Source: Oscillatoria princeps RMCB-10
GTDB taxonomy: Bacteria; Cyanobacteriota; Cyanobacteriia; Cyanobacteriales; Oscillatoriaceae
NCBI GenBank assembly: GCA_019359235.1
Contig: JAHHHT010000045.1
Span: 1 to 58,876, forward strand
Direction: 5' to 3'
Length of the DNA stretch: 58,876 bases
A program made the position numbers and the translations under genes. Shown here in pieces: positions 11,242 through 34,119 of this stretch (position 1 is the stretch's first letter; every line of letters starts with the position of its first letter). Below the pieces are notes generated by a model. That model made no database searches, was not told the DNA's origin, and saw only the letters and a list, made by a program, of their open reading frames with translations.

Positions 11242-11336
11242 GGAATTTTACTGGTTCTGAGTATTTGGTTTTCAGGTATTATATAAGATGTGAGAGGAAA
11301 AGTGTGAGAAAATTGAATGGCTTAGTTCTCTCGATG

Positions 11337-14515: not shown

Positions 14516-14627
14516 GTTCTCCTCTGTTAATTTGACAATTTAATTTTTCGCTAATACTCTACCATGAATTTGATATTTTAGATTGAACAGTCAATCTAAA
14601 ATATCACATCTAAGCTCTCAAATCACT

Positions 14628-18648: not shown

Positions 18649-19227
18649 ATGAACATCTACCAAAAACTAGCTCTGGCGCTTGTCGGCTCTAGTTTGAGTT
18701 TAGGCGCGCTCGGCACGATTCCTGCAACTGCCGCTGTCCTCACCTATAATTTTAAGTTTAAGGAGATGAATGGCAGCGACGGATATGGAAGTTTTTCATT
18801 TAACAGCTCTGACCTACAAGGAAAGCCTTATGAGAACGTGAGCTTATTATCTTTCACGTTAAACTTGTGGGGCAATACTTTGACAAAATTGCAGTTTTCA
18901 GGAGGGGGCGTTTATTTCAGGGAAGGAAGTTTTCGAGGATTGAACGGAAGCATCGGTGGTTACGATCAATCCTGTATGAATAGCGCGCCCAACCCGTATG
19001 CGCAGGCATATTGCCAGTTTAGCGGTTCGTTTGGTGCTTACGAGAACTATACAGATCCGAATCAGCCCTATTATGTGTTTATGGGCCATAAAGGCAGAGA
19101 GTCTGTATACTATACGCCGTCTTACGAGCAGGTTCCCGAACCGAGTGCCATAGGGGCATTGCTGGGACTGGGAATTTTTAAATGGAATCAATCGCGCCGG
19201 AAGCAAGTAAATAAAGCTAGCAATTAG
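18649..19227 (+). CDS. PEP-CTERM sorted secreted protein
   Basis: A 192-residue exported protein. The start at 18649 is chosen because AAAGGGGA lies just before it and it opens a signal peptide (NIYQKLALALVGSSLSLGAL ... ATAA). The upstream extension lies in the group II intron. The C-terminus is a standard PEP-CTERM sorting tag: VPEPSAIGALLGLGIF then a basic tail WNQSRRKQ, recognised by an exosortase (not encoded in this window). The middle is a beta-rich domain of unknown function with a cysteine pair (QSCMNS and AYCQF). The protein likely ends up outside the cell or in the envelope. Confidence 0.85.
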   Translation: MNIYQKLALALVGSSLSLGALGTIPATAAVLTYNFKFKEMNGSDGYGSFSFNSSDLQGKPYENVSLLSFTLNLWGNTLTKLQFSGGGVYFREGSFRGLNGSIGGYDQSCMNSAPNPYAQAYCQFSGSFGAYENYTDPNQPYYVFMGHKGRESVYYTPSYEQVPEPSAIGALLGLGIFKWNQSRRKQVNKASN

Positions 19228-19269
19228 CATTCGGCGATTGAAAATAGACAGTTGGGCGATCGCTGCTGA

Positions 19270-19386
19270 ACGTCAGTTCTGCTGCCGGCAGATCGGACGT
19301 TGAGTGGCGAGGAGATTGCTTTAGGAATTCCAGCACAGTCGATTCACTGGTTTGATCTGCGCACTGGCGACCGGCTGAAGTTTTGA
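19270..19386 (+). pseudogene. C-terminal remnant of an unidentified protein
   Basis: Directly after a TGA (19267) one frame reads as natural protein sequence to a TGA at 19384. It includes the block GEEIALGIPAQSIHWFDLRT followed by GDRLKF. There is no start codon or ribosome-binding site. It looks like the last 35 residues of a decayed gene. I cannot name the family. Confidence 0.3.
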
Positions 19387-19440
19387 GGGGCAGAAACCGG
19401 GTTTCGCCGAAGTTACCCGGTTTCTCCGGTTTCTCTGCGG

Positions 19441-20463
19441 CTAACTCAAGCGTTCTTCCAGCAAGTCACTCACCTGTTCCAAAAAGCGCCAAGCAACCAG
19501 CAATTGAGCGAATTCAGTCGCAGAAACCTGTTCGCGCTCCCGCTTGAGAATTGCTTGCTCTATGGGAATGCCGGTGAAATCGACAATGTGCCGCTCTAGC
19601 TCCGCAATAGTCTGCTGCGACAGCACGCCGTCGATGTGTATAATCATAACATTTCGCCCCCAGTAAGTGCAGGGAACTGCTGTCAGCAAGAAGGGCGGCT
19701 GGTTGGCGTTCAGCATCGCCGCCAAGTCAAATGGCAGGGGCAAAGTGGGCAGGGGTGCGGGTGCCGGCACGACAATCAGTTCTACTTTATAATACCCCTC
19801 CGGCAGCTGGCCGGTGAACTCGTGGCGGGAAAATTCTTTCAGCCGGCTGTTAAAAATTTTAATCACAACATCGGCACTCGTCTTTTGGAAATCCAGCCAC
19901 CGCTTGTAAGCGGCTTCCCGCTTCAGCATCTCCTCCACGAGCGTCTCAGCGCGGTGTCCCCGGCGCTTCACGTCGCGCTCAAATTTCCACTGCCACTTGA
20001 CATCGTGATCGGGGTCAACATAGATGCTGAAATCCAGCAGCGGCAGTAATTCGGGATAGAGAGCGTGCAATCCTTCTACAATGATAATGGGCTTGGGGGC
20101 GAAGGGCACCGGCGGGTCAAAAAAGCCGGTGGCGTGGTTGTAAATCGGAACGTCTACTGTTTTCCCCTGTTTCAGCTGGGTTAAGTGTTCCCGCAGCAAA
20201 TCCAGATGGTTGGCTTCGGGATCTAGCGGCAAGCGCCCGCTGGTTTTTCTTTGCTCACGGTCTTCTTTATGATACCCGTCCATTGCGATCGTGTCAACAA
20301 TGTCAGTACCGATAAGCCGGCGGATGCCGTCGCTGTAGGTGGTTTTGCCGCTGCCACTGTCGCCGGCGACGCCAATGATAACAGGAGAGCGCAGCTGGGA
20401 AAGCTGCGAGCGCAGAGTAATGCAAGCCGGCTGGTTGCTAGGTGTTGGTTCGATGGTTTGCAT
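19441..20463 (-). CDS. phosphoribulokinase/uridine-kinase superfamily protein
   Basis: A 340-residue P-loop kinase. Walker A is GVAGDSGSGKTT (about residues 31-42). It has MDGYHKEDREQRKTSG in place of the canonical PRK CLDDYH region, then LDPEANHLDLLREHL and PIYNHATGFFDPP, and the Walker-B-like PIIIVEGLHALYPEL. These are PRK-family motifs, but the C-terminal 130 residues differ from Calvin-cycle PRK, so this is the cyanobacterial PRK paralogue of unknown substrate. The tail (VSATEFAQLLVAWRFLEQVS) is helical. The gene is monocistronic or follows the next minus-strand gene, from which it is separated by a palindromic repeat. Confidence 0.88.
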   Translation of the reverse strand: MQTIEPTPSNQPACITLRSQLSQLRSPVIIGVAGDSGSGKTTYSDGIRRLIGTDIVDTIAMDGYHKEDREQRKTSGRLPLDPEANHLDLLREHLTQLKQGKTVDVPIYNHATGFFDPPVPFAPKPIIIVEGLHALYPELLPLLDFSIYVDPDHDVKWQWKFERDVKRRGHRAETLVEEMLKREAAYKRWLDFQKTSADVVIKIFNSRLKEFSRHEFTGQLPEGYYKVELIVVPAPAPLPTLPLPFDLAAMLNANQPPFLLTAVPCTYWGRNVMIIHIDGVLSQQTIAELERHIVDFTGIPIEQAILKREREQVSATEFAQLLVAWRFLEQVSDLLEERLS

Positions 20464-20559
20464 GAGATTGTCGCTTGATAAGTAGGTTTTTTCAACTTAA
20501 ATTTTGCCGCATTTTCAAGAATCGGGAGGCTGTCCCGGGGAACCAGAAACCGGGGAACT

Positions 20560-20592
20560 AGAAACCGGGTTTCTTTAAGAAACCCGGTTTCT
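20560..20592 (-). repeat. AGAAACCSGGTTTCT palindrome between two minus-strand genes
   Basis: A perfect 15-bp inverted repeat (20560-20574 and 20578-20592) with a 3-base loop, identical in design to the element at 9147-9179. It lies just after the stop of the isocitrate-lyase-like gene and may act as its terminator. A partial copy lies 20 bases away on the other side (near 20545). Confidence 0.8.
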
Positions 20593-20675
20593 TAATCCAC
20601 TCCCCAGAACCCCGGCATCTTTGCTATGCTTGTAGAGACGAGATTTAGTGCCGGAAACCAGGTTTCTCAGATCGC

Positions 20676-21545
20676 TCAATTTCCCACTTTGAACTGTTGC
20701 TCCAAGCGGCGATATTCGGGAACGCCAATGATTGTCTCGAATTCCTGGAAGTTCAGCAAATCCGAGAAACCGGCGGTGGTGCCGTGTTTTTTCAGGTAGC
20801 GGAAGCAAGCAGCCATTGCTTTGGTTGCGGAAAACAAGCCGGCAAGCGGGAACACCGCTATTTTATAGCCGAGTTCCTGCAACTCCCTGGCTGTGAGTAG
20901 GGGTGTTTTGCCGCCTTCTATCATATTAGCGAATAGGGGGACGTCTGGGAAGGCAGCTGCTATGGCTTTCAAGTCTTCAACGGATTGAGGCGCTTCTATG
21001 AATACGATATCCGCACCGGCTTCACAATACGCCCGCCCCCGGCGAATTGCTTCTTCTAAGCCCAGCGGGGCGCGGGCGTCGGTGCGCCCAATAATTACTA
21101 AGCCGCTGTCGCCTCGGGCGTGGACGGCAGCTTTGATTTTTTCGACATGTTCTTCGGCGGGGATGACGCGCTTGCCTTCAAAGTGGCCGCATTTTTTGGG
21201 CCATTCTTGGTCTTCCAGGATGATGCCGGCGACACCCAGCTGCACGGCATCGGTGACGGTGCGGATCACATTGAGGGGGTTGCCATAGCCGGTGTCGATG
21301 TCGGCGACCAGGGGGGTGCTGACCGATTGAACAATTCGCCCAACGCTGTAGAGCATTTCGGTTGCGGTGAGGAAACCGTAGTCGGGGCGTCCGAGGGTGG
21401 AGCCGGAAATGCCGAATCCGCTAGTGAAGACAACCTCGAATCCCAGCTGTTCGACCAGCTGTGCGCCAATGCAGTCGTAGACGCCGGGAAGTACGAGGAT
21501 TTCTGGGCGTTCCAGTATTTGCCGGAGTTTTTGGGCTTGGGACAT
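20676..21545 (-). CDS. isocitrate lyase / PEP phosphonomutase superfamily protein
   Basis: A 289-residue TIM-barrel enzyme. It has TSGFGISGSTLGRPDYGFLT, the metal-binding VADIDTGYGNP (Asp pair), the active-site loop ILEDQEWPKKCGHFEGKRVI with the catalytic KKCGH cysteine, IIGRTDAR, and ADIVFIEAPQS. Members include methylisocitrate lyase, carboxy-PEP phosphonomutase and oxaloacetate hydrolase/decarboxylase. The KKCGH loop favours a C-C lyase such as a methylisocitrate-lyase-like activity. No methylcitrate-cycle genes are nearby, so the substrate is open. Confidence 0.9.
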   Translation of the reverse strand: MSQAQKLRQILERPEILVLPGVYDCIGAQLVEQLGFEVVFTSGFGISGSTLGRPDYGFLTATEMLYSVGRIVQSVSTPLVADIDTGYGNPLNVIRTVTDAVQLGVAGIILEDQEWPKKCGHFEGKRVIPAEEHVEKIKAAVHARGDSGLVIIGRTDARAPLGLEEAIRRGRAYCEAGADIVFIEAPQSVEDLKAIAAAFPDVPLFANMIEGGKTPLLTARELQELGYKIAVFPLAGLFSATKAMAACFRYLKKHGTTAGFSDLLNFQEFETIIGVPEYRRLEQQFKVGN

Positions 21546-21707
21546 GAATTGTAGGGGTTGGTTTTACTAGACTATTTTCATATTTAATCAAAGTCTGTAG
21601 CCGCTGTAAGTGATTTATGAAAATAATGTTTTTCAATAAACCGCAAAGAATCTCACAGATCGTTTCTACCTGCTATATAGCGCATCTAAATCCTTCGTGT
21701 AAATTTC

Positions 21708-21740
21708 AGAACCCCGGTTTCTTAAAGAAACCGGGGTTCT
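21708..21740. repeat. AGAACCCCGGTTTCTT palindrome variant
   Basis: An inverted repeat AGAACCCCGGTTTCTT-A-AAGAAACCGGGGTTCT, in which both arms carry the matching CC/GG change relative to the common form. The paired change keeps the stem intact. Confidence 0.75.
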
Positions 21741-21776
21741 GGGCCCCCAGCGGTTGCGCCCATCATTTAGACTTGC

Positions 21777-21882
21777 TATAGCAGTAGCCACTTAGATTAG
21801 GACGTAGGACAGGCGTCTCGCCTGTCCCTATCCCTACTAGCAAGTGAGATGCCTTGTCCTAAACTGACTGTCTATTACTATA
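21777..21882 (+). repeat. MITE-like element, copy 2 (106 bp)
   Basis: Same length and orientation as the copy at 2809-2914, with scattered point differences. Ends are TATAGCAGTAGCCACTTAGA and TATTACTATA; the central GGACAGGCG-TCT-CGCCTGTCC hairpin is unchanged. It lies in a gene-free gap of about 480 bp downstream of the internally duplicated protein gene. Confidence 0.85.
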
Positions 21883-22029
21883 TATATAAAGCAGCGAACC
21901 GCGTCAAGCCCCTAGGCTGCAATCGTCTGGGGTTGAGATAAAAAAAGCGGTCGCCCTTCTCTCGGGATCTCGCCTCGCACGGGAAGGGTTTCCGCTGATT
22001 TTTGTCTGTAGCGAATTGCCCAATGTCAA

Positions 22030-22554
22030 TCAAGCGGCGGGCACCGCCAGGCCGAACGAGTACATGTAGCTTTCTAGTGTCGCAACGTTCTGATCGTAGG
22101 CAGAGTAGTCACCTAGTGAAACACCCTGACTCTGTACAAAAAATTGGAACGGCAAATTTCTCACACCGAAAAACGTCAGGAATCCGTCTGGCTGAAGGCT
22201 ATCTCCGTTCAAACCAATTGCCCAGTACCGCTCTTTGTAACTCTTCAGTTCATCGATTATACCGCTGCAGGCTTGCGCCTCCTGAACGCGCACACTGTCG
22301 ATATAGTTTTCCAGGGTAGAGATATTGATATCGTAAGCGGATGGGTCGCCTATGGAAGCGTAGTTGCGCAGGTAATAATTGAACGGTAGATTGCGCTCTA
22401 AAAAGAATTTCAGGAATCCATCTGGCTGTAAAGTATCTCCGTTAATGCCAATGGCCCAGTTGCGACTCTTGTAATTATTAAGTTCAGCAATAGTCGCCTG
22501 AGCTGCTTCGATCTCTTGTTTGGGGAGAATTCCTACTTGTGGCAGTTGCGTCAT
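22030..22554 (-). CDS. protein of unknown function with two tandem ~76-residue repeats
   Basis: Unrecognised. The 174-residue protein is an internal duplication: residues about 15-88 and 92-168 align well. Each repeat has a helix ending in a YK-S/E-R motif, then WAIG(I/L)NGD(T/S)LQPDGFL, FF..RNLPF, and (S)(I/L)GD.SAYD.N..TLE.Y. There is no signal peptide, membrane segment or catalytic motif. The strong conservation of NGD.LQPDGFL in both repeats suggests a binding site present twice. It is flanked by MITE copies and separated from the glucan lyase operon by about 850 bp. Confidence 0.8.
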   Translation of the reverse strand: MTQLPQVGILPKQEIEAAQATIAELNNYKSRNWAIGINGDTLQPDGFLKFFLERNLPFNYYLRNYASIGDPSAYDINISTLENYIDSVRVQEAQACSGIIDELKSYKERYWAIGLNGDSLQPDGFLTFFGVRNLPFQFFVQSQGVSLGDYSAYDQNVATLESYMYSFGLAVPAA

Positions 22555-22668
22555 ATAAAATCTTGTCCAAAGAGTGATAATTTGAATTGAAAGCCGAGCG
22601 CTTCAATTCAGCAATGGGTTGGGCCGTAACTGGGCCCACCGGCTAAAAGTAAAGAGGCTCGGCTGTTC

Positions 22669-22728
22669 TTTCTATATAGTAGACGATTTCACAGGGGAGT
22701 GTCTGACTTTTTGGAGTTAGAGGCTTTT
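22669..22728 (+). repeat. left copy of a ~60-bp sequence repeated at both sides of the glucan lyase block
   Basis: The shared core is GACGATTTCACAGGG followed by AGT.T.TGACTTTTT and GAGTTAG. It matches 29901-29962 in the same orientation with only a handful of differences. It lies downstream of the glucan lyase gene. The identity of the element is unknown to me; it may be an IS end. Confidence 0.7.
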
Positions 22729-23028
22729 TTTTACAGACCGGCGGCTGCCGGCTCGCATCTGGGCCATTTTATTGAATCAAGGGATTCTCCCCCTCCCACT
22801 CTCTCACTCATTCTTACCCATATCTTCAGTAGGGTGGGTTCCGCTTTGCGGAACCCACCTATAAGCCTTGCGGCTCCAGACGCGATAAATCAGACGCGAC
22901 AAATCAGACGCGATAAATCAGACGCGATTTATCGCCTCTCCACAAGAGAGCCGCCCCGCACCCGAAGCACTCCTGCCTGTAGCGGTTAATTCACTGGCTT
23001 GAATCTAAAACAGATCATACCCAGTTGA

Positions 23029-23158
23029 TATAGCAGTGCACAGTCAGTTTAGGACAGGGCATCTCACTTGTTAGTAGGAACAGGGACAGGCGTTAGCGTA
23101 GCGGCGCGTACTGAGGGAACGCCTGTCCTACGTCCTAACCTAAGTGGCTACTGCTATA
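23029..23158 (-). repeat. MITE-like element, copy 3 (130 bp, inverted)
   Basis: Opposite orientation to the copies at 2809 and 21777, with the same termini (TATAGCAGT... and ...CTACTGCTATA). Its central hairpin loop is enlarged by about 24 bp (GTTAGCGTAGCGGCGCGTAC region), so the element is longer. Confidence 0.8.
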
Positions 23159-23241
23159 TAGATAGTATTTCTGGCTCTCCGAGAAAAGGCTTTCCTGCCT
23201 TTTTTCAATCCAAAATCCAAAATATAAAATCTAAAATTGCG

Positions 23242-23284
23242 ATAAAAACCCTACAGCCCGGTCAAACCGGCAGCTGTAGGGTTT
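23242..23284 (-). terminator. rho-independent terminator of the glucan lyase gene
   Basis: A perfect 12-bp stem, AAACCCTACAGC / GCTGTAGGGTTT (23246-23257 with 23273-23284), with a 15-base loop. On the minus strand it is followed by TTTTT. It lies 120 bp after the stop codon of the glucan lyase gene. Confidence 0.8.
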
Positions 23285-23406
23285 CCGTCAGTTTCACTGG
23301 CCAATCAAGTTGGTGTTAGGGGTCTGCCACCCCAGAAAGCCCACAAAGGAGTCTGGAAAAATGGCACCAGCCCACCGGCTGACTGGCACTGAACACTGTC
23401 AAGTTA

Positions 23407-26400
23407 TTAGGCGTTGTATTCTGCCTTGATTTCGATGCGCGAGCTGCGGTCGAACACTTTGACGAAACTGGTGTTGATGTTGGGGTTGTAGTACCAGGCA
23501 TTGCTGGTGGAACCGCTGAGCTTATGCGCCAGTTCGTCAGGGGAGACGCCTGCGATCTCGTCAAGCTTTTGCCCGTCTATGGTCACGCTCTTCAAGCAAC
23601 CAGAGCTGCCTTTGGGCTCCCACGGGTCGTGCAGGATTGCCACGAAGAAAAATTCTTCCTTGGGCGTATACTTGTCGTGTTTGCGCTCCACAGTAATCAG
23701 GCGAGTTGAGCCAGTTTTGCTGTGCTTGATCTCTACCTCGCGATATTCGCTGTTCGCCAGGTCATCCCCGTCGTACACCACCGATTCCGCCGGCTCAGAA
23801 GCGCGGCTGATGCCGTCATCCAAATACATGGTGTATTGCCCGCTCGCACCAGGATAGATGTTCAGCGTTATGGGATTGAGCAGACCTTTGCTGTTCCGCT
23901 CTCCCACATACTGCTCAACCTCAATCATGGGGATGATAGCGCCCCATCGCACGAAGATGGGAACGATAAAAGGAATGTGATTGGGGTCGCCAGAAAGGTG
24001 CGCATCAAACTGGCGTATCGTAGTGCCGCCCTCATAAGCCTCACCGAGCGGCTGTTTGTTGTCCTTAAAAGTGTACCAGTTGCTGCCAGTAGGCAGATAG
24101 ACATCCCGCTTGCCGTAGCCGTTCGCCGGTGACTGCGGATCGAGAACTGGAGCGACGAGGATATCGTGCCGGAGGAAGAACTGGTCGTCGAGGAAGGCGA
24201 TCTTGTCATTGTAGATTGCCTTATCCTTTGGATCGTTCAGGAACATAGGCCGGCAGATGGGCAAGCCATCGAATGTGTTCTCAAACATGGCGTCATAGAA
24301 AACCTGCATCAGCCGGTACCGCAATTCAATGTAATACTTGCAGGCCGGCAAAACTGCGCGGTACAAATCTTGCGGTTGCGGCAGGGGCTTGTGCTGTTCG
24401 CGGAACCATTCTTCGTACATGAAGATTTCTTGGAACTGTTTCCGCCCTTTGCGCATGTAGTGATTGCGGAACCAGGGCAGGAAAGCTCCCGCAGCGACCC
24501 AGCGGATCATCAGTTCAGGACCGACCCACTGTTGCTCGTCGTTTTCTTGTTCAAAGCCCCCAATATCTTGCCCGTTCATAGTCACGCCGGAGATGCCGAC
24601 TGACAGAGCTTGGGACACGTTCATCTTGAGGAAATCCCAAGTGGAAGAGTTGTCGCCCGTCCACAGTGCGGCAAAGCGGTGAGCGCCGGTGAAACTGCCG
24701 CGCCCAACGATGAAGTTACGGTCAGTGCGCCGCTTTCCTGCTTTTTCTGGACCGGCCTGCTCTGAGTATACAAAGTTGTTGAGGCCCTGGTAAGTGGCTT
24801 TGTGGAGGTTGTAGGAATACAAGTTCCACACCTTGATAGCCGGCGTCAGTTTGGGTTCGTCTCCCGAGATAGAATCGTCGGTCACCTTCAATCGGAAGGG
24901 GAAGCCGCGCATATCCCCACGGCGGGAACGGATAGCAGGTGTTGTCATGTCCTGCCAAACCATTTCCAGGCCCATATCAAAGAGGTATTGATATTGCTTG
25001 CCCCACCACCGGCGCACGTCAGGCCGGCCAAAATCGGGGTAATGACCGGGCGTACCCATTTCCGCTCCCGTAATTCGGTCATTTCCGTAGTACACTTCCC
25101 CGATATAAGGCTCGCCTTTATTGGCGTTGTGTTCCGGGTCGTATGCGAAGAAAACGCTTTCCTGCCCTGGAGGATCGTAATTCTGGTAGCTGTAACCTTT
25201 ATTAAGGTCTTCAGGGTTGTTCAGATCGAGATCGCCGAAGTAGCGCTGATCTTTTACAAAATAGCCCTGATCGCGCCCTTCGGTGTAGGTTGAGTAGAAC
25301 GGCTCCTTTCGGCTAATAATTGGCGTAATGTTGGTGCTGCACTTCACCCCCAGGGATTTTAAGTAATCAAACATCCCTTTCGGATCGGGGAACTTGTTTG
25401 TATCAATCGTGAAGGTGTGGTAGTTATTCTGTACGTCCACATCCACATGCAGGCCGTCGAGCGGAATTTGGTAGTCGCGATGTTTGCGAACGCACCATTC
25501 CAGATCCCCCCGATTTTCATACCCATAGCACCCTTGGTGATATCCCAAGGCCCACCGGGGTTTTAGCCGCGAGCGTCCGACAATCTCAGTAAAGCTGTCT
25601 ACAAGTTCGGCAGGAGTGTCCGCCATGAAGAAATAGTAGTCAAGGTCGCCGTAGCGAGTACCGACCATATAGCGGCTGGAGTTGTAGAAGCCAATATCCA
25701 TCAGCACTTGACCGCGATTGTCAACGTACATGCCGGTGACACAATCTTTTTCAGGAACTCCGTTAAATTCAATGAAAAACGGTTCCGAGTGGTACATCGG
25801 TTCCCGCACGTCCAGAGGTCCGTAGTTATAGACCTGCCGGTACCGCATGTTATCGAAATTGAAATAGTTGAGCTGCGCGGTATTGCGGCAGAGTGAATAG
25901 CCACCTTGTTCGCCAAAGCCGATATACTTAGCCGGTGCGGGTTTCTTGACAAGCTGGATAATAGAATAATCGTCATTCCCGTTGGGAACGAATACTATGC
26001 CCGGTTGTGCCGTCTCCCAGACCTTAAAGCTGCTCCCGTCAGGCTCGCAATTTATCACCTCGATCTTGAAGGGCTCTTTGGTGAGAACCACTTGCATGAC
26101 AGATTCGTTATTCTGCCGCTTTTTCGTAGTTAGTACGCAGCCCTTACCACCCTCTAGGTCTTTCGGTTCTATGTAGAACTGTTCATCTCCCTGCTGGACT
26201 GTATTCTTTAAGTCTTGGAAGGTGTCCCGCACCACCGACCGGGTGTTGTTACGAGTGTAATCATTGGCGAGTTTTTTCGGGTTGAAACGAACCCGGAAGG
26301 TATCATTCTGCACGAACTGGAGCAGCATGGCGCAGAAACTGCCATCGCTCTTTTCAAACTCGATTACCAGCGCTTGTTCTTCGGCCTTGAATTGATAAGA

Positions 26401-26496
26401 AGAGACTTTCTTAAGGGTCTGCCAGTTTTTGATGTCGTTGAAATATTCTTCGACGGTAACGAACTTGTAAGCAGGTGTTAGCTGTGGACCTGACAT
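23407..26496 (-). CDS. GH31 alpha-1,4-glucan lyase (exo-lytic, 1,5-anhydrofructose-forming)
   Basis: A 1029-residue GH31 protein, close in length to red-algal and fungal glucan lyases, which cut glucose from the non-reducing end of glycogen or starch by elimination and release 1,5-anhydro-D-fructose. The nucleophile motif reads MVWQDMTTP (Asp516) instead of the W-x-DMNE of hydrolases. This QDMT form is what I recall from the lyases. The acid/base site is WTGDNSSTW (Asp615), with GVTMNGQDIGGF after it. N-terminal galactose-mutarotase-like and C-terminal beta domains (VAPVLDPQSP, YLDDG) are present. There is no signal peptide, so it is cytosolic and probably acts on glycogen. A GAGAGG ribosome-binding site precedes the ATG. 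A lytic rather than hydrolytic activity is inference from motif and neighbours. Confidence 0.88.
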   Translation of the reverse strand: MSGPQLTPAYKFVTVEEYFNDIKNWQTLKKVSSYQFKAEEQALVIEFEKSDGSFCAMLLQFVQNDTFRVRFNPKKLANDYTRNNTRSVVRDTFQDLKNTVQQGDEQFYIEPKDLEGGKGCVLTTKKRQNNESVMQVVLTKEPFKIEVINCEPDGSSFKVWETAQPGIVFVPNGNDDYSIIQLVKKPAPAKYIGFGEQGGYSLCRNTAQLNYFNFDNMRYRQVYNYGPLDVREPMYHSEPFFIEFNGVPEKDCVTGMYVDNRGQVLMDIGFYNSSRYMVGTRYGDLDYYFFMADTPAELVDSFTEIVGRSRLKPRWALGYHQGCYGYENRGDLEWCVRKHRDYQIPLDGLHVDVDVQNNYHTFTIDTNKFPDPKGMFDYLKSLGVKCSTNITPIISRKEPFYSTYTEGRDQGYFVKDQRYFGDLDLNNPEDLNKGYSYQNYDPPGQESVFFAYDPEHNANKGEPYIGEVYYGNDRITGAEMGTPGHYPDFGRPDVRRWWGKQYQYLFDMGLEMVWQDMTTPAIRSRRGDMRGFPFRLKVTDDSISGDEPKLTPAIKVWNLYSYNLHKATYQGLNNFVYSEQAGPEKAGKRRTDRNFIVGRGSFTGAHRFAALWTGDNSSTWDFLKMNVSQALSVGISGVTMNGQDIGGFEQENDEQQWVGPELMIRWVAAGAFLPWFRNHYMRKGRKQFQEIFMYEEWFREQHKPLPQPQDLYRAVLPACKYYIELRYRLMQVFYDAMFENTFDGLPICRPMFLNDPKDKAIYNDKIAFLDDQFFLRHDILVAPVLDPQSPANGYGKRDVYLPTGSNWYTFKDNKQPLGEAYEGGTTIRQFDAHLSGDPNHIPFIVPIFVRWGAIIPMIEVEQYVGERNSKGLLNPITLNIYPGASGQYTMYLDDGISRASEPAESVVYDGDDLANSEYREVEIKHSKTGSTRLITVERKHDKYTPKEEFFFVAILHDPWEPKGSSGCLKSVTIDGQKLDEIAGVSPDELAHKLSGSTSNAWYYNPNINTSFVKVFDRSSRIEIKAEYNA

Positions 26497-26691
26497 TAAA
26501 AAACCTCTCGTAATAGTGAACGAACTTCTTGGCGAGACTGACTGAGGTGTGGCAACCTGAACTCCCTAACCCGAACTCCTCAGGATTGAGTCGCGCAATC
26601 CCTTGGAGCCAAGGACAGAGGAAGTGACGGGTACTGGCGATCGGGCTCTCAAACCTTAGTTTGCGATCTCCCTCAGATAGAGTTGCTGAGT

Positions 26692-27450
26692 TTAAGCTTT
26701 ATCCTGCGGGTGATACTCTATTGCCATCCAGATGCAATCAGTATCTGAGTAATATTGGTGCCACGGATAAAGGTATTGGCTGTTTTCCTCTACTTGACAG
26801 AATGGAAGATAGGTTGTATAGCCCGGACTCATCAACAGATCCTCATAGATAGTGGCGTAGTCTTGAGCTTTGAACTTCTGCATTCTGCCCACGCCAAATA
26901 TCTGCGTGTGGATTTCGATAAAGTCATGCTGGTTGTGTATAAAACAATTCGTGTGCGAGGGCGCAAACCACAAATTTAGTTTAACGAGAAAGCGTTCCTT
27001 TTTCCCTGGCGTCTCCGTTTGCCTCGTCATGTAATACGGATCGACCTCTACAACAGCCGCGTCATCTTGTGGCGAGATCCACAGAGGTGTGTTCTTGGGG
27101 TAGTAGAGTTCGGTACTGTCGGAATTATTAGGAGGGTCTGGCATCTGATCTCCTAACAGGAACCAGCCCGGCTCCAAAATAATATTCCCCATGTTGGTGG
27201 TGTCTTTGACCTCCAGCAATATCAGTGATTCCGCCTTCTCGACGATTATATCCTTGAGGATTGTAGACGCAAAAGCGGGAATAATATTTCTGACCGGCTT
27301 GCCCACATAAACATCGGACATGTGAGGGTTGACCGCGATGGTCGGGTTCTTGATGTAATAGTCCCTCACGTTTTCGACGAACTTCGCTTCTATATGGGCC
27401 CCAGCAAAGTTTAACCTCTTTTCCGTGTTACATGCCCGCACGCTTACCAT
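26692..27450 (-). CDS. cupin protein, candidate isomerase half of aldos-2-ulose dehydratase
   Basis: A 252-residue protein without signal peptide. Its metal-site segment is FIHNQHDFIEIH (His172, His175, Glu179, His181), and a later conserved block YLYPWHQY (His231) is followed by DCIWMAIEY. These match, in order and wording, segments I recall from the cupin region of Phanerochaete aldos-2-ulose dehydratase (FHNHVEASFCEIH; YPWHAW; FDVWVAFEF). In the fungal enzyme this region holds a second zinc site linked to the isomerisation of ascopyrone M to microthecin. GAGGAG precedes the ATG. It lies between the propeller gene and the glucan lyase gene on the same strand. The exact reaction is inferred. 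Confidence 0.75.
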   Translation of the reverse strand: MVSVRACNTEKRLNFAGAHIEAKFVENVRDYYIKNPTIAVNPHMSDVYVGKPVRNIIPAFASTILKDIIVEKAESLILLEVKDTTNMGNIILEPGWFLLGDQMPDPPNNSDSTELYYPKNTPLWISPQDDAAVVEVDPYYMTRQTETPGKKERFLVKLNLWFAPSHTNCFIHNQHDFIEIHTQIFGVGRMQKFKAQDYATIYEDLLMSPGYTTYLPFCQVEENSQYLYPWHQYYSDTDCIWMAIEYHPQDKA

Positions 27451-27726
27451 AGTTTAGCTCTTCTCTCCTCGTGTAGATCGGCGTATGTTTGAATTTTACT
27501 TTACCTGCGCTCCCCATACAAGGGGCTGCCTAAAATTTTTGCTCAACCGGCAGTTATATTGTCCACTTGCCATCCTTATTTTTGGGTAGGGGCGGGCATA
27601 TATCTCTAGTAAACCAGCCCCTACAAAACATCCCTGCGTTCTCGACCGCCACCTGAAGATGCGGGCTGCGATTGCTCATCCTATTATAGCAATCTTCGTG
27701 CGGAAGTCAACCCCGCGCCCTGCCTC

Positions 27727-29001
27727 CTAAACCGGCGCAAATCTGTTGTGGTAAACAATAACAGATGGGTTCTCCGCACAATAATATCCTGCCACAGAAT
27801 AGCCTATAGTGGCAAAGTCCAACCGGCCATCGCCATCGAAATCAGCCACCGCTATGCGGGCGGTAGAATCTTCCGAAATCCGCCATTTCACGAACACGCC
27901 ATTTTTCACATCGATGGCCTTGTAGTAAAACACACCCTGCCAAGGCATAGGCCCTCGGAGCGCAACCAGGAACTCATCGTCCCCGTCCTTATCAAAATCC
28001 CCACAAATCACAAAATGTCCTGGCCCTTCTCCCATAGGATTGGGATCGCCGTAGACATCCAGAACCACCCTTTTCCACTTACAATTTAGAGAATTTTCGC
28101 TGTCTGCAGCATTGCTGCCATCCGTATCCTTGCAGTAGACCACTACCGTATTGCCATGAAACGGCTCAACGGCTGCAATGTAGGCCAAGCTGTCATTGCC
28201 TACCTTGCCCGCATCCACATCGCCACTGCCTTTAAACCCTGTTTTAGAAACTTCCACCAGCTCGCCCTCGCCGATCGGCTTGGCGTGCCATTTTCCCCCT
28301 TCGGCGCTGTAATAGAGCCAGGTGATTCCTTCTTCAGAAGCAATTAGCGCCGAATCGAGATTCGAGCCTGACTTCTTGCCATATTTCTTAATGGACACCC
28401 CGTGAATGACATGGAATTTTTTATCTAGGGGCGGCTCCCCAGGCGGCATTCCATCATCTATGGGATGGAGCTCCTCACGCACCCACTCTCCTGCTCGGTA
28501 GACATCATCCGGCTGAGTGAACAGCAATACCGGCGTAATCGAGTGCAGATCGTTGGGTCTGCCAACAATAGGCAGGGCCAAAACTTGAAGTTTCTTTTCC
28601 TGCGTAAAATAGCCTACCTTGAGGCGGTGCATGGAAGTGGCTTTGCCAATGTAGCGAGCAACCCAATCCCGGTTGGACTTACCCGGATTTTCCAGCCAGA
28701 CAATTTTGCCCCCATTGGGGTCGCAATTTATCATCGTCTGACCGTATTGATAGCAAATAATGATATCATTCCAGCCATCCCCGTTTACATCTGCATAGTG
28801 CATGCCAACGGGGCCAAGATATTTAGTGATTTGTGTCTTTTTCCAACCTGGATTTTTGTACCAGTTCACCTCACCTACATTCATGCCATAGGCCACAATA
28901 TCCGGTTTCTTGTCCCTAGAAATATCGAAAGCCTCAATCCAGTAGCCATCTTGCCGGCGATCTTCAACAACCTGTCGTTCAAACTTAGGTTGAATAAACA
29001 T
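27727..29001 (-). CDS. beta-propeller protein, candidate dehydratase half of aldos-2-ulose dehydratase
   Basis: A 424-residue propeller of FG-GAP/VCBS type with calcium-loop-like motifs ADVNGDGWNDI (70-80), GDFDKDGDDEF (334-344) and ADFDGDGRLDF (386-396). It parallels the N-terminal propeller of fungal aldos-2-ulose dehydratase: DGYWIEAF, MHYADVNGDGWNDIII, GKIVWLENPG, MHRLKVGYF, AVEPFHGNTVVVY, with conserved histidines (68, 125, 282) that could hold the zinc. That enzyme dehydrates 1,5-anhydrofructose to ascopyrone M. The start at 29001 is preferred because GGAGGG lies 7 nt before it, inside the alternative upstream start (29016). No signal peptide. It is the first gene of the glucan lyase cluster. 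Confidence 0.8.
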   Translation of the reverse strand: MFIQPKFERQVVEDRRQDGYWIEAFDISRDKKPDIVAYGMNVGEVNWYKNPGWKKTQITKYLGPVGMHYADVNGDGWNDIIICYQYGQTMINCDPNGGKIVWLENPGKSNRDWVARYIGKATSMHRLKVGYFTQEKKLQVLALPIVGRPNDLHSITPVLLFTQPDDVYRAGEWVREELHPIDDGMPPGEPPLDKKFHVIHGVSIKKYGKKSGSNLDSALIASEEGITWLYYSAEGGKWHAKPIGEGELVEVSKTGFKGSGDVDAGKVGNDSLAYIAAVEPFHGNTVVVYCKDTDGSNAADSENSLNCKWKRVVLDVYGDPNPMGEGPGHFVICGDFDKDGDDEFLVALRGPMPWQGVFYYKAIDVKNGVFVKWRISEDSTARIAVADFDGDGRLDFATIGYSVAGYYCAENPSVIVYHNRFAPV

Positions 29002-29016
29002 GTGCGTACCCTCCAT

Positions 29017-30718
29017 TCTTCTTACAGCTCAAGCTACTTTATGTGTGGGGTCTAGCCCCCTGCTGACACTACTTATTTATTCTTCAGCCGCTCACAACAG
29101 TCTAACACGCTTGTCTTTCATCTCGCGCACGAGCGCTGTCTGACTCCTAATTTTTTTTTGTTGGCGTTTTTTTTGCTAACACCCTGCTGAACTCCTTTTA
29201 ATCCTACTGGACTAACCGGCACCTGTCATTATTTCAATAATTTATTAATTTTTTTAAGTTTATCTTCTATGACAGTAACAGTAACCCCTGCGCCGCTTGC
29301 CACCACCGACCACCTCCTGTCCTTGAACGGCAAAGAAAGAAGTGGCTGCTGCAAGCGCTAGCCAAGAAACATATATCTCTTGGGAAGCGAATCAGCGATT
29401 GCTCCCACTCAAAGAGATTGGATTGAATGTCCCGTCAAAAAATTTTTCTTCAATATCGAAGCACTGCCCACAGTCCCATTCTTCTTTGCGGCGATGCGGA
29501 TTCATCGCTGACAGTGCGTCAGATCCCCTACTGATAGGGTGGCGCTAACCGTGCCAGATTGACCGAACCGCAGGGGGCAATCTTGTTAATTTTGACCGTC
29601 AGCCCGATCGCCGTCCAGCTCTAAGTGCGGTCGGATGTCACCCCAAAGGGTGAATTGACCCAGACATTCGCACAGTTCCTTAAAGGAGTGGAAGGTTCTG
29701 GCCATCGCTTTACCCTGTGTGGGAAGCAGTGAGGGTAAAGCATAAAAGGCTCACGCTCAAACGGTTTGACCTCCTTTTTTATGGACTTTTGTCAGTCAGG
29801 GCCATCCCCTGGGGTCAGCCCTTGGTAGAGCTTACCTGAGAGGAGTTCCAGCGTACCATCTCGGTTGGCCATCAAGAATGCCTCTCGATATCACCTAACC
29901 TTTCTATCTAATAAGACGATTTCACAGGGCAGTTTGTGACTTTTTCGAGTTAGGGGGGTTTTCGCTGGGGTGAAATACAAGGTGTGTCTGTAAATGTATT
30001 CTTTTATACAGAAGCCAGGGAAGAATGTGGGTCGTAGCGGCTGTTATTCGCGATTGAAATAAAGGCTTTTTTCCAGACCGGCGCACCGGCAGCAAAAACC
30101 CTCAGACAGCATCTCAGTTTCGCAAATACATCCAAAGATAGATACACATAACACGATTTAAGTGATAAAATTACCAGTTTACGTGCAAAAATGAGAGGCA
30201 CCAAAAAACCCGCAAGGGCTTTAACCCTTGAGGGCAAAGGCTTACAAGAATTTCAGAGTTTCCTGAGCGTGCCGGCGGAGCGGGCAGACCACCCCCGAGC
30301 CCGGGACGTTTCGGCAAGCTCCCCTGGCCCGCGCCACCTCTCCCCGAGCCTCCAGCGCTTTGCCCCTTTTTTTCCACTCCCTTGGGGAAATGCAGCAACC
30401 GGCTCCCGAGGAGCCGGCACCGGCAGCACAGGCAGCCTCAGGCCATGTTTGGCGATATTCTGTCCTGTCGCAGCGGCACTTCTGTATATAGGTGCTCCCC
30501 CTCCCGCCGGAACTCCCTCACTGCCGCCTGCCGGTGGCCTATCTGGCAGAGCAGCGCCGCCCGTACGAGCGCGTTTCTTCCATCCTTGGGGATACGCCTG
30601 CCGGCTTTGAGATCCAGTCCAGGTCTATATTTCGTATGACAGGCGTCTCGCCTGTCCAAGTGTCAAGGACGCCGGCTGGACGCCCCTGCGGTCAGGCGAG
30701 CCGGCACTAGCGAGAACC
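29017..30718. other. 1.7 kb without a firm gene; repeat and possible gene remnants
   Basis: The first 300 bases should hold the promoter of the glucan lyase cluster. On the minus strand two short frames read like protein. The first is at 29792-29872 (26 residues, MANRDGTLELLSG..., with GAGAGG before it). The second is at 29586-29705 (39 residues, MARTFHSFKELCECLG...). They could be remnants of one lost gene. A perfect 10-bp stem GCTTTACCCT / AGGGTAAAGC lies at 29707-29741. The repeat at 29901-29962 follows. From 30190 to 30718 the DNA is GC-rich, CCGG-rich and apparently noncoding, with a MITE fragment (ACAGGCGTCTCGCCTGTC) near 30640. Confidence 0.45.
29901..29962 (+). repeat. right copy of the ~60-bp repeat flanking the glucan lyase block
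   Basis: Direct repeat of 22669-22728, sharing GACGATTTCACAGGG, TGACTTTTT and GAGTTAG. The copies are about 7.2 kb apart and enclose the glucan lyase, cupin and propeller genes. Beyond the match, the left copy continues into TTTTTTACAGACCGGCG. A similar CTTTTTTCCAGACCGGCG occurs about 100 bp further on here, as if this copy had received an insertion. Confidence 0.7.
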
Positions 30719-32032
30719 CTACAGCCGGGCAAACCGCACCCGCAGGCCATCTTTAGGGTGCCGAGTGGGAAAGACAACTGCTTCCAGACTCTGACCGGCT
30801 AGCAACTCCCACTGATACTCCCGCAACAAATGCGCCGCCACAATCTTCATCTCCAGCTTGGCAAAGGCAATTCCAATACAAACCCGGGGACCGCCGCCAA
30901 ACCCAATCAAGCTGAAAGGGCGCTTTTTGTGTTCCTGACGCTCCGGACTGAACCGGTCGGGGTCAAATGTCTCCGGTTCCGGGTAAACATCAGGGAGCCG
31001 GTGCGTCGTAACAATAGAATATTGCAGTTGCCAGCCAGCCGGCACGTAATAGCCGTTGAACTCGAACGGCTTCACCACGCCGCGAAAGCCACCACCCACC
31101 GGCGGGTGCAGGCGCTCAATTTCCAACAGGATTTGCTCTAAATACGGCATTTGCCCCAGCTGTTCCAAATTCAGCGGGCCGGTTTGCGCCAGCTTCATCT
31201 GTTCAGAGCGGGCGCGTCGCAACACCTGCGGATTGCGCCCCAGCTCCAGGCACAGCCAAGTTAACATGGAAGTTGTCGTTTCATGGCCGGCAAACAGCAT
31301 CAGCATCGCTTGAGCAATCAGTTCTTTCTCGCTCAGGCAATTGCCTTCCTGATCGCGGGCTTGTATCAGCAAGCTGAGAACATCCTTAGTGGGGTTTTGC
31401 CGGCGCTCCTCGACAACTTTAGCGATGTGTTCTAGCAGCTGGTCGCGGGCTGCGATCGCCTTGCCGAACTTCGTCCAGGGCAAGCGCGAAGGGAGAATCG
31501 AAAAGAAACCGTTTGTCAGCGTCGAAAACAGCCGGCTGAGTCGCGCCACCTCGGCACCAGGAGTTGCGCCCACCAGCAGCTGGCTGGCAATATCAAACGT
31601 TAATTGTTTAAACTCCTCGAACCAGGTGAATTCCCCTTTTTCCTCCCACCCGCGCAGATAGCTTTGGGCGAGCGACTCCATCGTACTGGCATAGCCAGCC
31701 AGCGCCGGTCCGTGAAGCGCCGGCATCATCAGCCGCCGGTTGCGCCGGTGCTCCTCTCCCTCTTGCAGAAAAAGCGATTCCCCCAGCAGAACCTTGAAAG
31801 TATCAGGCCAACCTTCGTGCCAGGAAAAACAGTCGAAATGACTCGTCAGGACAAACTCAGCCGCCTCTGGGCCAATCATAAATACAGTCGGTTTGCCCAG
31901 CAGCCCACTTTTAAAAATCGGCCCGTACTGGGCGTAACACTTCTTGATATAGTCCGGGTCGAACAGAAATTGCAGAGTTTGGCCAATCACCGGCAAGCCC
32001 ATCTGGCCGGGAGGAAGTTGTTTGCTAGGCAT
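30719..32032 (-). CDS. cytochrome P450, CYP120-like
   Basis: A 437-residue haem monooxygenase. The I-helix is MLMLFAGHETTTSML, the ExxR-region reads LEQILLEIERLHPP, the PERF region DPDRFSPERQEHKKRPFSLI, and the haem-binding loop FGGGPRVCIGIAFAKLE with the axial cysteine. The N-terminus LPPGQMGLPVIGQTLQFL and overall pattern resemble CYP120A1 of Synechocystis, which hydroxylates retinoids. An apocarotenoid or retinoid substrate is plausible but not proven. The start at 32032 (MPSKQLPPG) is preferred to the longer frame from 32116. No redox partner is adjacent. Confidence 0.94.
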   Translation of the reverse strand: MPSKQLPPGQMGLPVIGQTLQFLFDPDYIKKCYAQYGPIFKSGLLGKPTVFMIGPEAAEFVLTSHFDCFSWHEGWPDTFKVLLGESLFLQEGEEHRRNRRLMMPALHGPALAGYASTMESLAQSYLRGWEEKGEFTWFEEFKQLTFDIASQLLVGATPGAEVARLSRLFSTLTNGFFSILPSRLPWTKFGKAIAARDQLLEHIAKVVEERRQNPTKDVLSLLIQARDQEGNCLSEKELIAQAMLMLFAGHETTTSMLTWLCLELGRNPQVLRRARSEQMKLAQTGPLNLEQLGQMPYLEQILLEIERLHPPVGGGFRGVVKPFEFNGYYVPAGWQLQYSIVTTHRLPDVYPEPETFDPDRFSPERQEHKKRPFSLIGFGGGPRVCIGIAFAKLEMKIVAAHLLREYQWELLAGQSLEAVVFPTRHPKDGLRVRFARL

Positions 32033-32317
32033 AGGACAGCTATTTACAGTTGCCTCCAGCCTATCAGCTACAGCGCCGCAAAAGCATCCCCTGCCCCCAT
32101 AAAAAAGAAGCCCCATAAGGCGCGGGCGGCACTGATGGGGCTGTTGACGCAGTTAGGAAGTATCTTATTGTTTCTAGTTAGCCACAGAAATCTGGCACAC
32201 CGAATTGTCTTAACAACTTCTTAAGCTTACAGGCAAGATTTCCTCAGATTTTAGGTGAATCTGACCCAAAAACAAAAGATTCAACCCTTTCTCCCTCCTA
32301 ACATGCTGTATTGCCGG

Positions 32318-33130
32318 CTACTTTTGGGGCACCAATTTGGCAGAATCCAGATTGATAAACGGTACAGCACCGTTCCCCCCCAAAACCGTCGGGAAATGGC
32401 CATCCCATTTCTCAATCGCCTGCTTTTGCAGAATTTCCGCCGTCAGATTTTCCCGCAGCAGTCGCTGCGCCTCCGCCTGACCTTGGGCGCGGTTAACTTC
32501 CGCTTCTGCCTCCTTCGTAGCCTTGAGCGCTATAAACTCCGCCCGCTTGGCATCTTGTTCCGCAATCTGCTTAGCCTCAACCGCCTCCCTGAACCGGTCA
32601 GAGAAGTGGATATTAACCAGCGAGATGTCATCCACCGCCAGATTATAATTAGCCAGTCGCGCCGTCAATTGATCGTCAATGCCGGCTTTCACCTCTCCTC
32701 GCTTCGTAATGATTTGCTCCGCCGTGTACTGGGCCATCACCGCTTTCAGAACTTCTTCAATCGCCGGGTTGATAATCCGCTGGACAATCTGCCCCTCATC
32801 ACCTATCTGCTGAAAAACAGTATTAGCCCGTTCCGCAAAAATGTGCCAGTTTAGCGCCACATCCGTGTACACGTCCTGCAAATCTTTCGAGGCAGCCTCA
32901 GCAGGAACTTGGTGTTTCTGCACCCGGACGCTCAGCCTTTGAACCGAGTTGACTACCGGCACAATCAGGTGAATACCCTCACTGAGAACCTTATCCTGAA
33001 CTTGCCCGAAATTCAACACAACACCCCGCTCGCCGGCATTCACAATCGCGAACGGCTGGAAAACAATTAGCGCCAGCACTAGCAGCGCCGCCACCGCACT
33101 GGCAATATAAACTGAACTCGTCGATTTCAT
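32318..33130 (-). CDS. SPFH/prohibitin-like protein (paralogue 1)
   Basis: A 270-residue protein with one N-terminal membrane helix (VYIASAVAALLVLALIVF), then a band-7/SPFH domain (VNAGERGVVLNFGQVQDKVL; TDVALNWHIFAERANTVFQQ). A long charged coiled coil follows (EAKQIAEQDAKRAEFIALKA). Prohibitin-like proteins form ring scaffolds that protect or control membrane proteases such as FtsH. The start at 33130 (MKSTSS) is chosen because the preceding frame is unlike the family. It follows a close paralogue on the same strand. Confidence 0.92.
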   Translation of the reverse strand: MKSTSSVYIASAVAALLVLALIVFQPFAIVNAGERGVVLNFGQVQDKVLSEGIHLIVPVVNSVQRLSVRVQKHQVPAEAASKDLQDVYTDVALNWHIFAERANTVFQQIGDEGQIVQRIINPAIEEVLKAVMAQYTAEQIITKRGEVKAGIDDQLTARLANYNLAVDDISLVNIHFSDRFREAVEAKQIAEQDAKRAEFIALKATKEAEAEVNRAQGQAEAQRLLRENLTAEILQKQAIEKWDGHFPTVLGGNGAVPFINLDSAKLVPQK

Positions 33131-33282
33131 AATCTGCCTAACTTTTTTTTCGTTCCCAGACTCCAGCCTGGGAACACATACCTGAGAGGCAGAGCCTCTC
33201 GCTGACTGTCGGCTGGAGCCAACTGCTGGGCAACTCTCTTCTTGGCGCACAGGCGCGTCTTGGCGGTTCCTTACATTTTACA

Positions 33283-34119
33283 TCACCGCTTAGCCGCCGG
33301 CGCATTCAAAGAACCCGTATCGATATTAATAAACGGTAGCGCACCGCTGCCACCCATCACCATCGGAAAACGGCCATCCCATTTTTCAATCGCTTGCTGT
33401 TGCAGCAGCGGTGGCGTTAGCGTCTGCCGCTGCAATCGCTGCGCCTCGGCTTGACCTTTGGCGCGGTTGATTTCTGCCTGCGCTTCCTGCTTAGCCTTCA
33501 GGGCGACAAACTCCGCCCGTTTGGCTTCTTGCTCGGCAATCTGCTTGGCCTCAATCGCTTTGGCAAATTCAGCAGAAAAAGACACATTCACCAAAGACAC
33601 ATCATCCACGAGCACCCCGTAAGCGGCTAACCGCGCTTTCAGCTGATTGTCAATTTCTTGCTTCAGTTCCGTGCGCTTGGTGATGATTTCCTCAGCGTTC
33701 TTTTTGGCAGCTGCCGCCTTGACCACTTCCGAAACTGCCGGCGAGATAATCCGATTCACAATTTCTGTTTCATCCCCCACCCGCTGGAAAACCTCATTCA
33801 CGCGCTTGGGGTCGATGTGCCAGTTGAGGGCCACATCGGTTTTGACATCCTGCAAGTCTCTGGATGCCGCTTCGGCGTTCACGTCGTTCTTTTGCACGCG
33901 AACGCTGAGTTTTTTTACCGAGGTCACCACCGGCACAATCATGTGGAGCCCCTCATCCAAGACCTTATCCTGAACTTTGCCAAATTGCATGACTGCGCCT
34001 CTCTCGCCGGCATTAACAATCACAAAAGGTCTGAAAAGAATCGCCGTCAGCAGCAGGACAATCCCCCCGCTAATGTACAGGGCAGTCTTATAGGCATCAC
34101 TAATATCTGCGGTTTTCAT
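33283..34119 (-). CDS. SPFH/prohibitin-like protein (paralogue 2)
   Basis: A 278-residue protein with the same layout as the gene downstream: membrane helix (TALYISGGIVLLLTAILF), SPFH domain (VNAGERGAVMQFGKVQDKVL; TDVALNWHIDPKRVNEVFQR) and coiled coil (EAKQIAEQEAKRAEFVALKA). The two share most positions in the SPFH domain and the same C-terminus (PFINIDTGSL versus PFINLDSAKL). This points to a tandem duplication and possibly a mixed ring of both proteins. They are separated by about 150 bp. Confidence 0.92.
   Translation of the reverse strand: MKTADISDAYKTALYISGGIVLLLTAILFRPFVIVNAGERGAVMQFGKVQDKVLDEGLHMIVPVVTSVKKLSVRVQKNDVNAEAASRDLQDVKTDVALNWHIDPKRVNEVFQRVGDETEIVNRIISPAVSEVVKAAAAKKNAEEIITKRTELKQEIDNQLKARLAAYGVLVDDVSLVNVSFSAEFAKAIEAKQIAEQEAKRAEFVALKAKQEAQAEINRAKGQAEAQRLQRQTLTPPLLQQQAIEKWDGRFPMVMGGSGALPFINIDTGSLNAPAAKR

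Follow-up and report, generated by a model that had tools for sequence, protein, structure and literature searches.

A predicted 1,5-anhydrofructose pathway in the cyanobacterium Oscillatoria princeps: a glucan-lyase-like gene beside separate genes for propeller and cupin proteins resembling aldos-2-ulose dehydratase

Introduction

The aldos-2-ulose dehydratase (AUDH) of the fungus Phanerochaete, known from the structures 4a7k, 4a7y and 4a7z, carries a beta-propeller and cupins on a single chain. Zinc is reportedly bound at both the propeller and the cupin sites, and His155 is said to be the likely acid/base, an account attributed to Claesson in 2012. Another fungal pathway, in Anthracobia, is reported (Yu, in 2004) to use a separate 1,5-anhydrofructose (AF) dehydratase and an ascopyrone tautomerase. 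Alpha-1,4-glucan lyase, the enzyme that makes AF, is represented by the algal enzyme of Gracilariopsis (2x2h), and a bacterial AF reductase by that of Sinorhizobium morelense (2glx). Here we analyzed contig JAHHHT010000045.1 of the cyanobacterium Oscillatoria princeps RMCB-10, a stretch of 58,876 nucleotides (nt) that we call the window, from a source genome of 8.49 Mb. Three neighboring genes of this window encode an AUDH-type propeller protein, a small bicupin and a lyase-type member of glycoside hydrolase family 31 (GH31).

The retrieved sections of PMC12441222 attribute glucan lyase to fungi and red algae, and present bacteria as organisms that degrade AF and anhydroglucitol; those of PMC6003095 mention the degradation of AF by marine Opitutae, not its production. 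A further article, PMC12903740, was dropped as a source for a cyanobacterial glucan lyase because the phrase occurred only in its reference list in the text retrieved. Our literature search, with specialist GH31 papers outside it, found no published bacterial cluster of a lyase with AUDH parts, and an earlier notice of a bacterial lyase-like GH31 protein is possible.

The locus shares with fungal AUDH an AUDH-specific propeller at full length with the same four histidines, and a bicupin with an AUDH-like predicted fold. It differs in that the propeller and the cupin are encoded by separate open reading frames (ORFs), that the cupin sequence is very diverged and that the propeller is dispensable; furthermore, Pfam searches did not find the C-terminal lectin-like domain of AUDH in either protein. 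With the algal lyase, the GH31 protein has in common QDMTxP, the residue equivalent to N459, the GDNS acid/base region, PWFRNHY and its grouping in the tree, but it is bacterial, only distantly related and encoded beside a cupin. As in Anthracobia, a lyase is predicted to be combined with two separate downstream activities. A parallel to the use of AF by rhizobia is that Rhizobiaceae encode members of this cupin family next to a protein resembling AF reductase, although the reductase of Shinella is only distantly similar to that of S. morelense (E 1.5e-28, 103 bits).

Results

Gene organization

The three genes lie on the minus strand in the 5′ to 3′ order propeller, cupin, GH31. The first (27727..29016) encodes an AUDH-type beta-propeller protein of 429 amino acids, a putative part of a 2-keto-sugar or AF dehydratase. 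The second (26692..27450) encodes a bicupin of 252 amino acids, which may be a metal enzyme acting on AF or on its dehydration product. The third (23407..26496) encodes a GH31 protein of 1029 amino acids, the predicted alpha-1,4-glucan lyase making AF. The propeller and cupin genes are 276 nt apart, and the cupin and GH31 genes 195 nt. A previous sequence-only reading of this DNA had described the three minus-strand genes and quoted the motifs DGYWIEAF, MHYAD, MHRLKVGYF, EPFHGNTV, HNQHDFIEIH, YPWHQY and VWQDMTTP, all of which were recovered here. The end of the propeller gene given in that reading, 29001, corresponds to the in-frame Met6 of the 429-residue ORF and is a plausible alternative start.

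The GH31 protein

The window GH31 protein matched the GH31 catalytic domain (PF01055) with 262 bits, the cut-off being 23.5. When it was searched by phmmer against the Protein Data Bank (PDB), maltase-glucoamylase ranked first with 201.4 bits, a score that adds up four stretches in two GH31 domains, of which the highest-scoring reaches 61.7 bits. The algal lyase 2x2h came second with 175.3 bits and a best stretch of 155, and was the top chain with one GH31 unit, while plant alpha-glucosidase ranked below it with 164.6 bits and a best stretch of 100.7; scores per stretch were compared for these three chains. A 6-row GH31 profile gave the same top two chains.

According to the retrieved sections of PMC12441222, D553 of the lyase is assisted by N459, a position at which the GH31 hydrolases have Ile. 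Counting along the printed alignment places D553 at chain position 542 of 2x2h (an offset of 11) and N459 at position 448. The alignment, taken with the same sections of PMC12441222, equates D553 with D516 of the window protein (codon 24949..24951, minus strand), the predicted nucleophile/base, and the surrounding VWQDMTTP aligns with VWQDMTVP of 2x2h, giving QDMTxP and not xDMNE. The lyase-diagnostic N459, replaced by Ile in hydrolases, corresponds to N389 in CSTNITP (codon 25330..25332, minus strand). Furthermore, D615 in WTGDNS (codon 24652..24654, minus strand) is aligned with D654 of the 2x2h chain, which we take to be the acid/base D665.

A MAFFT alignment of 32 rows was then used to follow the diagnostic position. 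In this set L012 and L044 are one locus with the same DNA, the damaged lyase-type loci L052 and L053 were left out, and the hydrolase-type rows consist of eight paralogues from seven genomes, hand-picked from many and including L056 of the window genome, and two PDB hydrolases. Asn occupies the N459 position in 20 of the 21 cyanobacterial lyase-type rows (19 of 20 loci), the exception being Thr in L048, and Ile is found in all ten hydrolase-type rows. The tree comprised 28 of these rows (L041, L043, L044 and L051 omitted) with 2x2h as the sole known lyase. A 100/100 branch separates 18 rows, namely 2x2h and all 17 included cyanobacterial lyase-type rows, from the other 10. Full-length relatives are 58-66% identical to the window protein, rising to 91% in a same-genus genome, and the window genome encodes a separate hydrolase-type GH31 protein (L056). 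From its residues and its clade the window protein is predicted to be an alpha-1,4-glucan lyase; the previous description of it as glucan-lyase-like agrees with residues, clade and score alike.

Two divergent cyanobacterial proteins were also observed. The Thr-bearing lyase-type GH31 gene of L048 (7225-10410) adjoins an intact cupin gene, and the activity of its product may differ. L054 (7635-10931) represents a second lyase-like type, 31% identical, with WQDMTCP and the diagnostic Asn; its top PDB match was 2x2h, with alpha-glucosidase II close behind, and no cupin match was found within the surrounding 18 kb.

The propeller protein

Residues 9-422 of the propeller protein matched fungal AUDH (4a7k) with an E-value of 1.9e-75, and the Pfam model AUDH_beta_propeller (PF22301) was matched with 188 bits for a cut-off of 27. 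These two values bear out the assignment of the protein to AUDH, as opposed to a generic FG-GAP propeller. His130, His205, His287 and His334 are identical in all 15 aligned propellers, among them AUDH and a gammaproteobacterial protein only 28% identical, and are candidate zinc ligands. H130 is aligned with position 155 of the 4a7k chain, presumably the catalytic His155 of AUDH. In the propeller tree, the cupin-associated propellers form one 100/100 clade with fungal AUDH nested within it, as would be expected had the two bacterial proteins been fused to form AUDH.

The cupin

The window cupin had no Pfam match to generic cupin families. In a Pfam scan of 15 cupins, AUDH_Cupin was matched by 14 at E ≤1 (best 3.9e-4), and a Streptomyces homologue matched it at 7.3e-4. 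The model PF18637 gave nothing over its cut-off in 243 genomes of the order although the order carries these cupins, which indicates that the family model is too distant from them. A structure model built from 6 cupins was dropped for its low predicted local distance difference test (pLDDT) score of 49.6. The model used, an AlphaFold2 prediction from 15 sequences, had a pLDDT of 73.6 and a predicted template modeling score (pTM) of 0.75, residues 85-126 being below 50. When this predicted structure was compared with the PDB by Foldseek, AUDH gave template modeling (TM) scores of 0.52 (4a7z) and 0.50 (4a7y), the other 48 of the 50 matches listed being at or below 0.32. All 12 diverse cupins compared share H172, H175, E179, H181 and H231, which are candidate metal ligands. 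The AUDH-like nature that had been claimed for the cupin is thus favored by the predicted structure (TM 0.52) and weakly by sequence, AUDH_Cupin being matched below its cut-off where scores are shown, and the protein is likely, although not proven, to be homologous to the AUDH cupins.

Distribution of the three genes

Lyase and cupin were each searched in 291 genomes of the window's order, taken as the same draw, a GH31 protein being called lyase-type at 505 bits or above. The lyase-type protein was found in 19 genomes and the cupin in 18, with 15 genomes having both. The four genomes with a lyase-type protein and no cupin are G392, where it starts at a contig end, and G579, G581 and G461, where it is truncated or broken. 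The cupin gene lies directly upstream of the lyase gene on the same strand in 15 of the 15 genomes with both; the G312 cupin is a C-terminal fragment only, and the lyase frame of G501 seems broken near its start. The propeller gene adjoins the pair in five of these 15 genomes (the window's, G388, G420, G408 with a frame break and G386 with a diverged copy) and is located elsewhere in one, G540. The same trio in the same order occurs in Plectonema, Mastigocoleus and Planktothricoides (with a frame break in the propeller), and in G388 and G420 of the order. At the scale of the phylum, full-length propellers were found in 2 of 386 genomes, the window's own included. The stable unit is cupin plus lyase, and the propeller is dispensable.

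In several genomes the gene after the lyase encodes a SnoaL-like protein, by eye with a likely signal peptide, which may be a fourth member (L045 11249-11788, L048 10870-11418, L049 6900-7448, L050 10370-10771, L089 6791-7339). At L089 the lyase is gone and the SnoaL-like gene is still beside the cupin gene, and L052 has a piece of such a gene; none was found in the window.

Signals around the genes

A promoter-like site, TTGACT-16-TATAAT (27683..27710, minus strand), matches at 11 of 12 positions between the propeller and the cupin and would drive the cupin and GH31 genes, and a terminator-like hairpin of 9 pairs with a T-run (23364..23389, minus strand) follows the GH31 gene. Both calls are pattern matches only: promoter-like sites of at least 9/12 numbered 10, compared with 6.7 ± 2.6 in shuffles, and terminator-like sites in the region were not above shuffles (8 vs 7.6). 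The position of these two elements suggests that transcription of cupin and GH31 may be separate from that of the propeller. The compact operon that had been proposed is therefore accepted with reservations, given the internal promoter-like site and the cupin-lyase unit. An ORF of 174 amino acids (22030-22554, minus strand), flanked by the GH31 gene and a PEP-mutase-like gene, has two similar halves by eye and matched nothing in Pfam or NCBIfam at E 0.1.

Mobility and repeats

A segment of approximately 8 kb that includes the trio (22753..30715, approximate limits from flanking matches) is missing at the collinear place of the same-genus genome G391. On contig C5 of that genome, 373725-376527 corresponds to window 30716-33500 and 376729-377655 to window 21832-22752, with 201 bp between them. 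Direct repeats of 49 nt, 86% alike, are located at window 22681-22729 and 29914-29962. Inverted copies of a dispersed repeat of ~106 bp, present in dozens of copies in two same-genus genomes, were noticed at 21671-21883 and 23015-23162.

At L024, the trio is flanked by direct 939-bp copies of an insertion sequence (IS)-like element (5339-6277 and 14141-15079; 99.5% identical) and resembles a composite transposon. At L025, 26 codons still match the window-type propeller, next to a gene for a diverged propeller that by eye has a likely lipoprotein signal, and a second cupin remnant is located upstream; this arrangement (elements at 9456-9533, 9988-11424 and 11494-11817) looks like a gene replacement.

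Other genomic contexts

On two Streptomyces plasmids, the cupin gene (annotated 'hypothetical protein'; profile E ~1e-87) lies directly upstream of a gene for an AUDH-type propeller (L100 3788-9221 on plasmid NZ_CP108675.1; also L102). The pair is preceded by a gene passing the wecB model, for a WecB-type UDP-GlcNAc 2-epimerase, and by one for a berberine-like FAD protein; an acyltransferase and a hydrolase were also seen at these loci. This is possibly a biosynthetic cluster starting at a UDP-sugar instead of glycogen.

On plasmids of Rhizobiaceae, the cupin is accompanied by a helix-turn-helix regulator, a Gfo/Idh oxidoreductase and a TIM-barrel isomerase at all seven loci examined (L104 8995-12573 in Shinella; also L103, L105, L106, L107, L108 and L109), which were drawn from 24 matching records of Rhizobium, Shinella, Sinorhizobium and Ensifer. 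Several of these genes are broken at L107. The Gfo/Idh protein of Shinella, the one tested, matched two 1,5-anhydro-D-fructose reductases and no other PDB chain at E ≤1e-15. Several of the rhizobial cupin loci adjoin sugar ABC transporters or GMC oxidoreductases. An assignment of the regulator to the AraC type was dropped, Pfam giving a weak helix-turn-helix match only. A GH31 search run with no positive control revealed no match in five plasmid records of these other contexts, both Streptomyces plasmids, one Rhizobium and one Shinella plasmid included; no rhizobial propeller was present in the plasmid collection.

Propellers of another clade are found in two cyanobacteria and on a plasmid of Persicobacter (Bacteroidota), at L020 1661-10014, L092 2722-9921 and L101 4414-14836, where the accompanying genes encode a GMC sugar dehydrogenase, a ferritin-like protein and a TIM-barrel isomerase. 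In the two cyanobacteria these propellers have a likely signal peptide, by eye. L013 (Chloroflexota) combines a propeller of the other type with the isomerase and with a short remnant of a GMC gene (4112-4294). The GMC protein of L020 was considered as a pyranose oxidase and dropped, its PDB matches being FAD glucose and fructose dehydrogenases.

Discussion

Taken together, the predicted functions make it probable that these cyanobacteria possess an AF pathway in which glycogen would be converted to AF and AF would then undergo elimination or tautomerization by the split parts of AUDH. The GH31 protein would cleave terminal alpha-1,4-linked glucose from intracellular glycogen or its oligosaccharides by elimination, with D516 forming the glycosyl-enzyme and then serving as base, assisted by N389. 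By eye, no signal peptide was evident in the three window proteins, and the enzyme would accordingly use glycogen stored by the cell itself. The cupin and, where present, the propeller would take over the reactions that fungal AUDH carries out at its two metal sites, in which a 2-keto sugar loses water by beta-elimination and the enone is isomerized, leading to ascopyrone M and then to microthecin or a close relative. Since the cupin is kept beside the lyase in genomes without the propeller, its most likely substrate is AF itself or whatever product is first formed from AF, and loss of the propeller with cupin and lyase kept indicates that the propeller would be an add-on step, as an additional dehydratase. 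We infer that AF is the metabolite common to the different contexts, and that cupin and propeller depend on metals and act in this order. The term split AUDH, already used in the sequence-only reading, is apt, as what is one chain in fungi corresponds to neighboring genes in Cyanobacteriota and Actinomycetota.

Several observations weigh against this pathway. In the two trees, the rows of 2x2h and of AUDH 4a7k were copied from their alignments to the window proteins and have long branches, which may flatter both groupings. The relative L048 combines Thr at the N459 position with VWLDMTTP. Three of the 18 genomes with a cupin (G433, G485 and G504, all of one genus) had no lyase match, and the propeller was not found in nine of the 15 genomes with cupin and lyase, two of the nine being 88-90% complete. 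For the cupin, scores to AUDH_Cupin lie below the cut-off wherever they are shown (13.1 bits vs 25 for the window member), GlgX_C and ComK were each weakly matched by 3 of the 15 cupins and DUF5029 also by a few, and none of four rhizobial homologues matched AUDH_Cupin. By sequence, no PDB match was obtained with the single protein at E 1 or with profiles of 6 and 15 rows at E 10. Ordered by Foldseek E-value, AUDH holds ranks 9-10 for the predicted cupin structure, below BacB, oxalate decarboxylase and AerE. The superposition on AUDH is loose (root mean square deviations of 10.7 and 14.8 Å), so that the two halves of the cupin may be placed differently than in AUDH.

Other purposes can be imagined for the same genes. 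They could serve carbon use or storage turnover, AF from glycogen being recycled to central metabolism through the cupin as isomerase or epimerase, with the propeller as an occasional side branch. This would account for the constant adjacency of cupin and lyase (15/15), and it fits both the seven rhizobial loci, where the cupin accompanies a regulator, a TIM-barrel isomerase and a Gfo/Idh reductase whose Shinella copy is nearest to AF reductase, and the growth of a Sinorhizobium on AF as sole carbon source noted in the retrieved sections of PMC12441222. No gene for an AF reductase or isomerase was recognized beside the window trio, however, and the chemistry of fungal AUDH yields unusual enones and not central metabolites; we consider recycling a possibility well short of an even chance. 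The sequence-only reading had instead favored defense, with microthecin and ascopyrones as antimicrobials. The retrieved sections of PMC12441222 do record antibacterial activity of ascopyrone and microthecin, fungal products from AF, and the patchy distribution and mobility of the genes (the segment missing from G391, the IS copies of L024) would suit an accessory trait. But an eye scan of the ORFs at 19000-34000, six of them domain-scanned with the trio included, revealed no exporter or resistance gene, no signal peptide was evident by eye in the trio, lyase and cupin are kept in the nine of 15 genomes where no propeller was found, and cupin relatives in Rhizobiaceae lie near sugar transporters, in a catabolic-looking setting. 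The defensive product is not supported here and appears unlikely.

The enzymes themselves could also have been misread. The propeller might act on 2-keto sugars other than AF, such as glucosone, its position beside the lyase being secondary. Fungal AUDH is said, after Koths in 1992, to work also behind pyranose oxidase, where its substrate is glucosone, and in two cyanobacteria and on the Persicobacter plasmid the propellers of the other clade accompany a TIM-barrel isomerase, a GMC sugar dehydrogenase and a ferritin-like protein. The cupin-associated propellers, however, form their own 100/100 clade with fungal AUDH inside, and we regard a substrate other than AF as improbable. As GH31 proteins are mostly hydrolases, and the summed phmmer score, adding two GH31 domains, puts maltase-glucoamylase first, the window protein might even be an ordinary alpha-glucosidase or transglucosidase next to the other genes by chance. 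Its lyase residues and clade, the separate hydrolase-type L056 in the same genome and the adjacency of cupin and lyase in 15 of 15 genomes leave very little probability for this explanation.

Beyond the window, we tentatively propose, at somewhat less than even confidence, a modular bacterial AF metabolism that has not been described. The unnamed cupin family would be the true AF-handling enzyme, its partners being a lyase in cyanobacteria, an AUDH-type propeller together with a UDP-sugar enzyme resembling WecB on plasmids of Streptomyces, and a reductase with an isomerase in Rhizobiaceae. Fungal AUDH would have arisen when the propeller and cupin of bacteria were fused, and gene retention would give the order lyase, cupin, propeller, and hence which metal site of AUDH acts first. 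If the predicted pathway is true, it would place an AF route in a photosynthetic, glycogen-storing bacterium, and three independent genomic contexts would point to AF as a bacterial metabolite. It would also offer small single-site enzymes with which to ask which AUDH site dehydrates and which isomerizes, and would give a function to proteins now annotated as 'hypothetical' and 'VCBS repeat-containing'.

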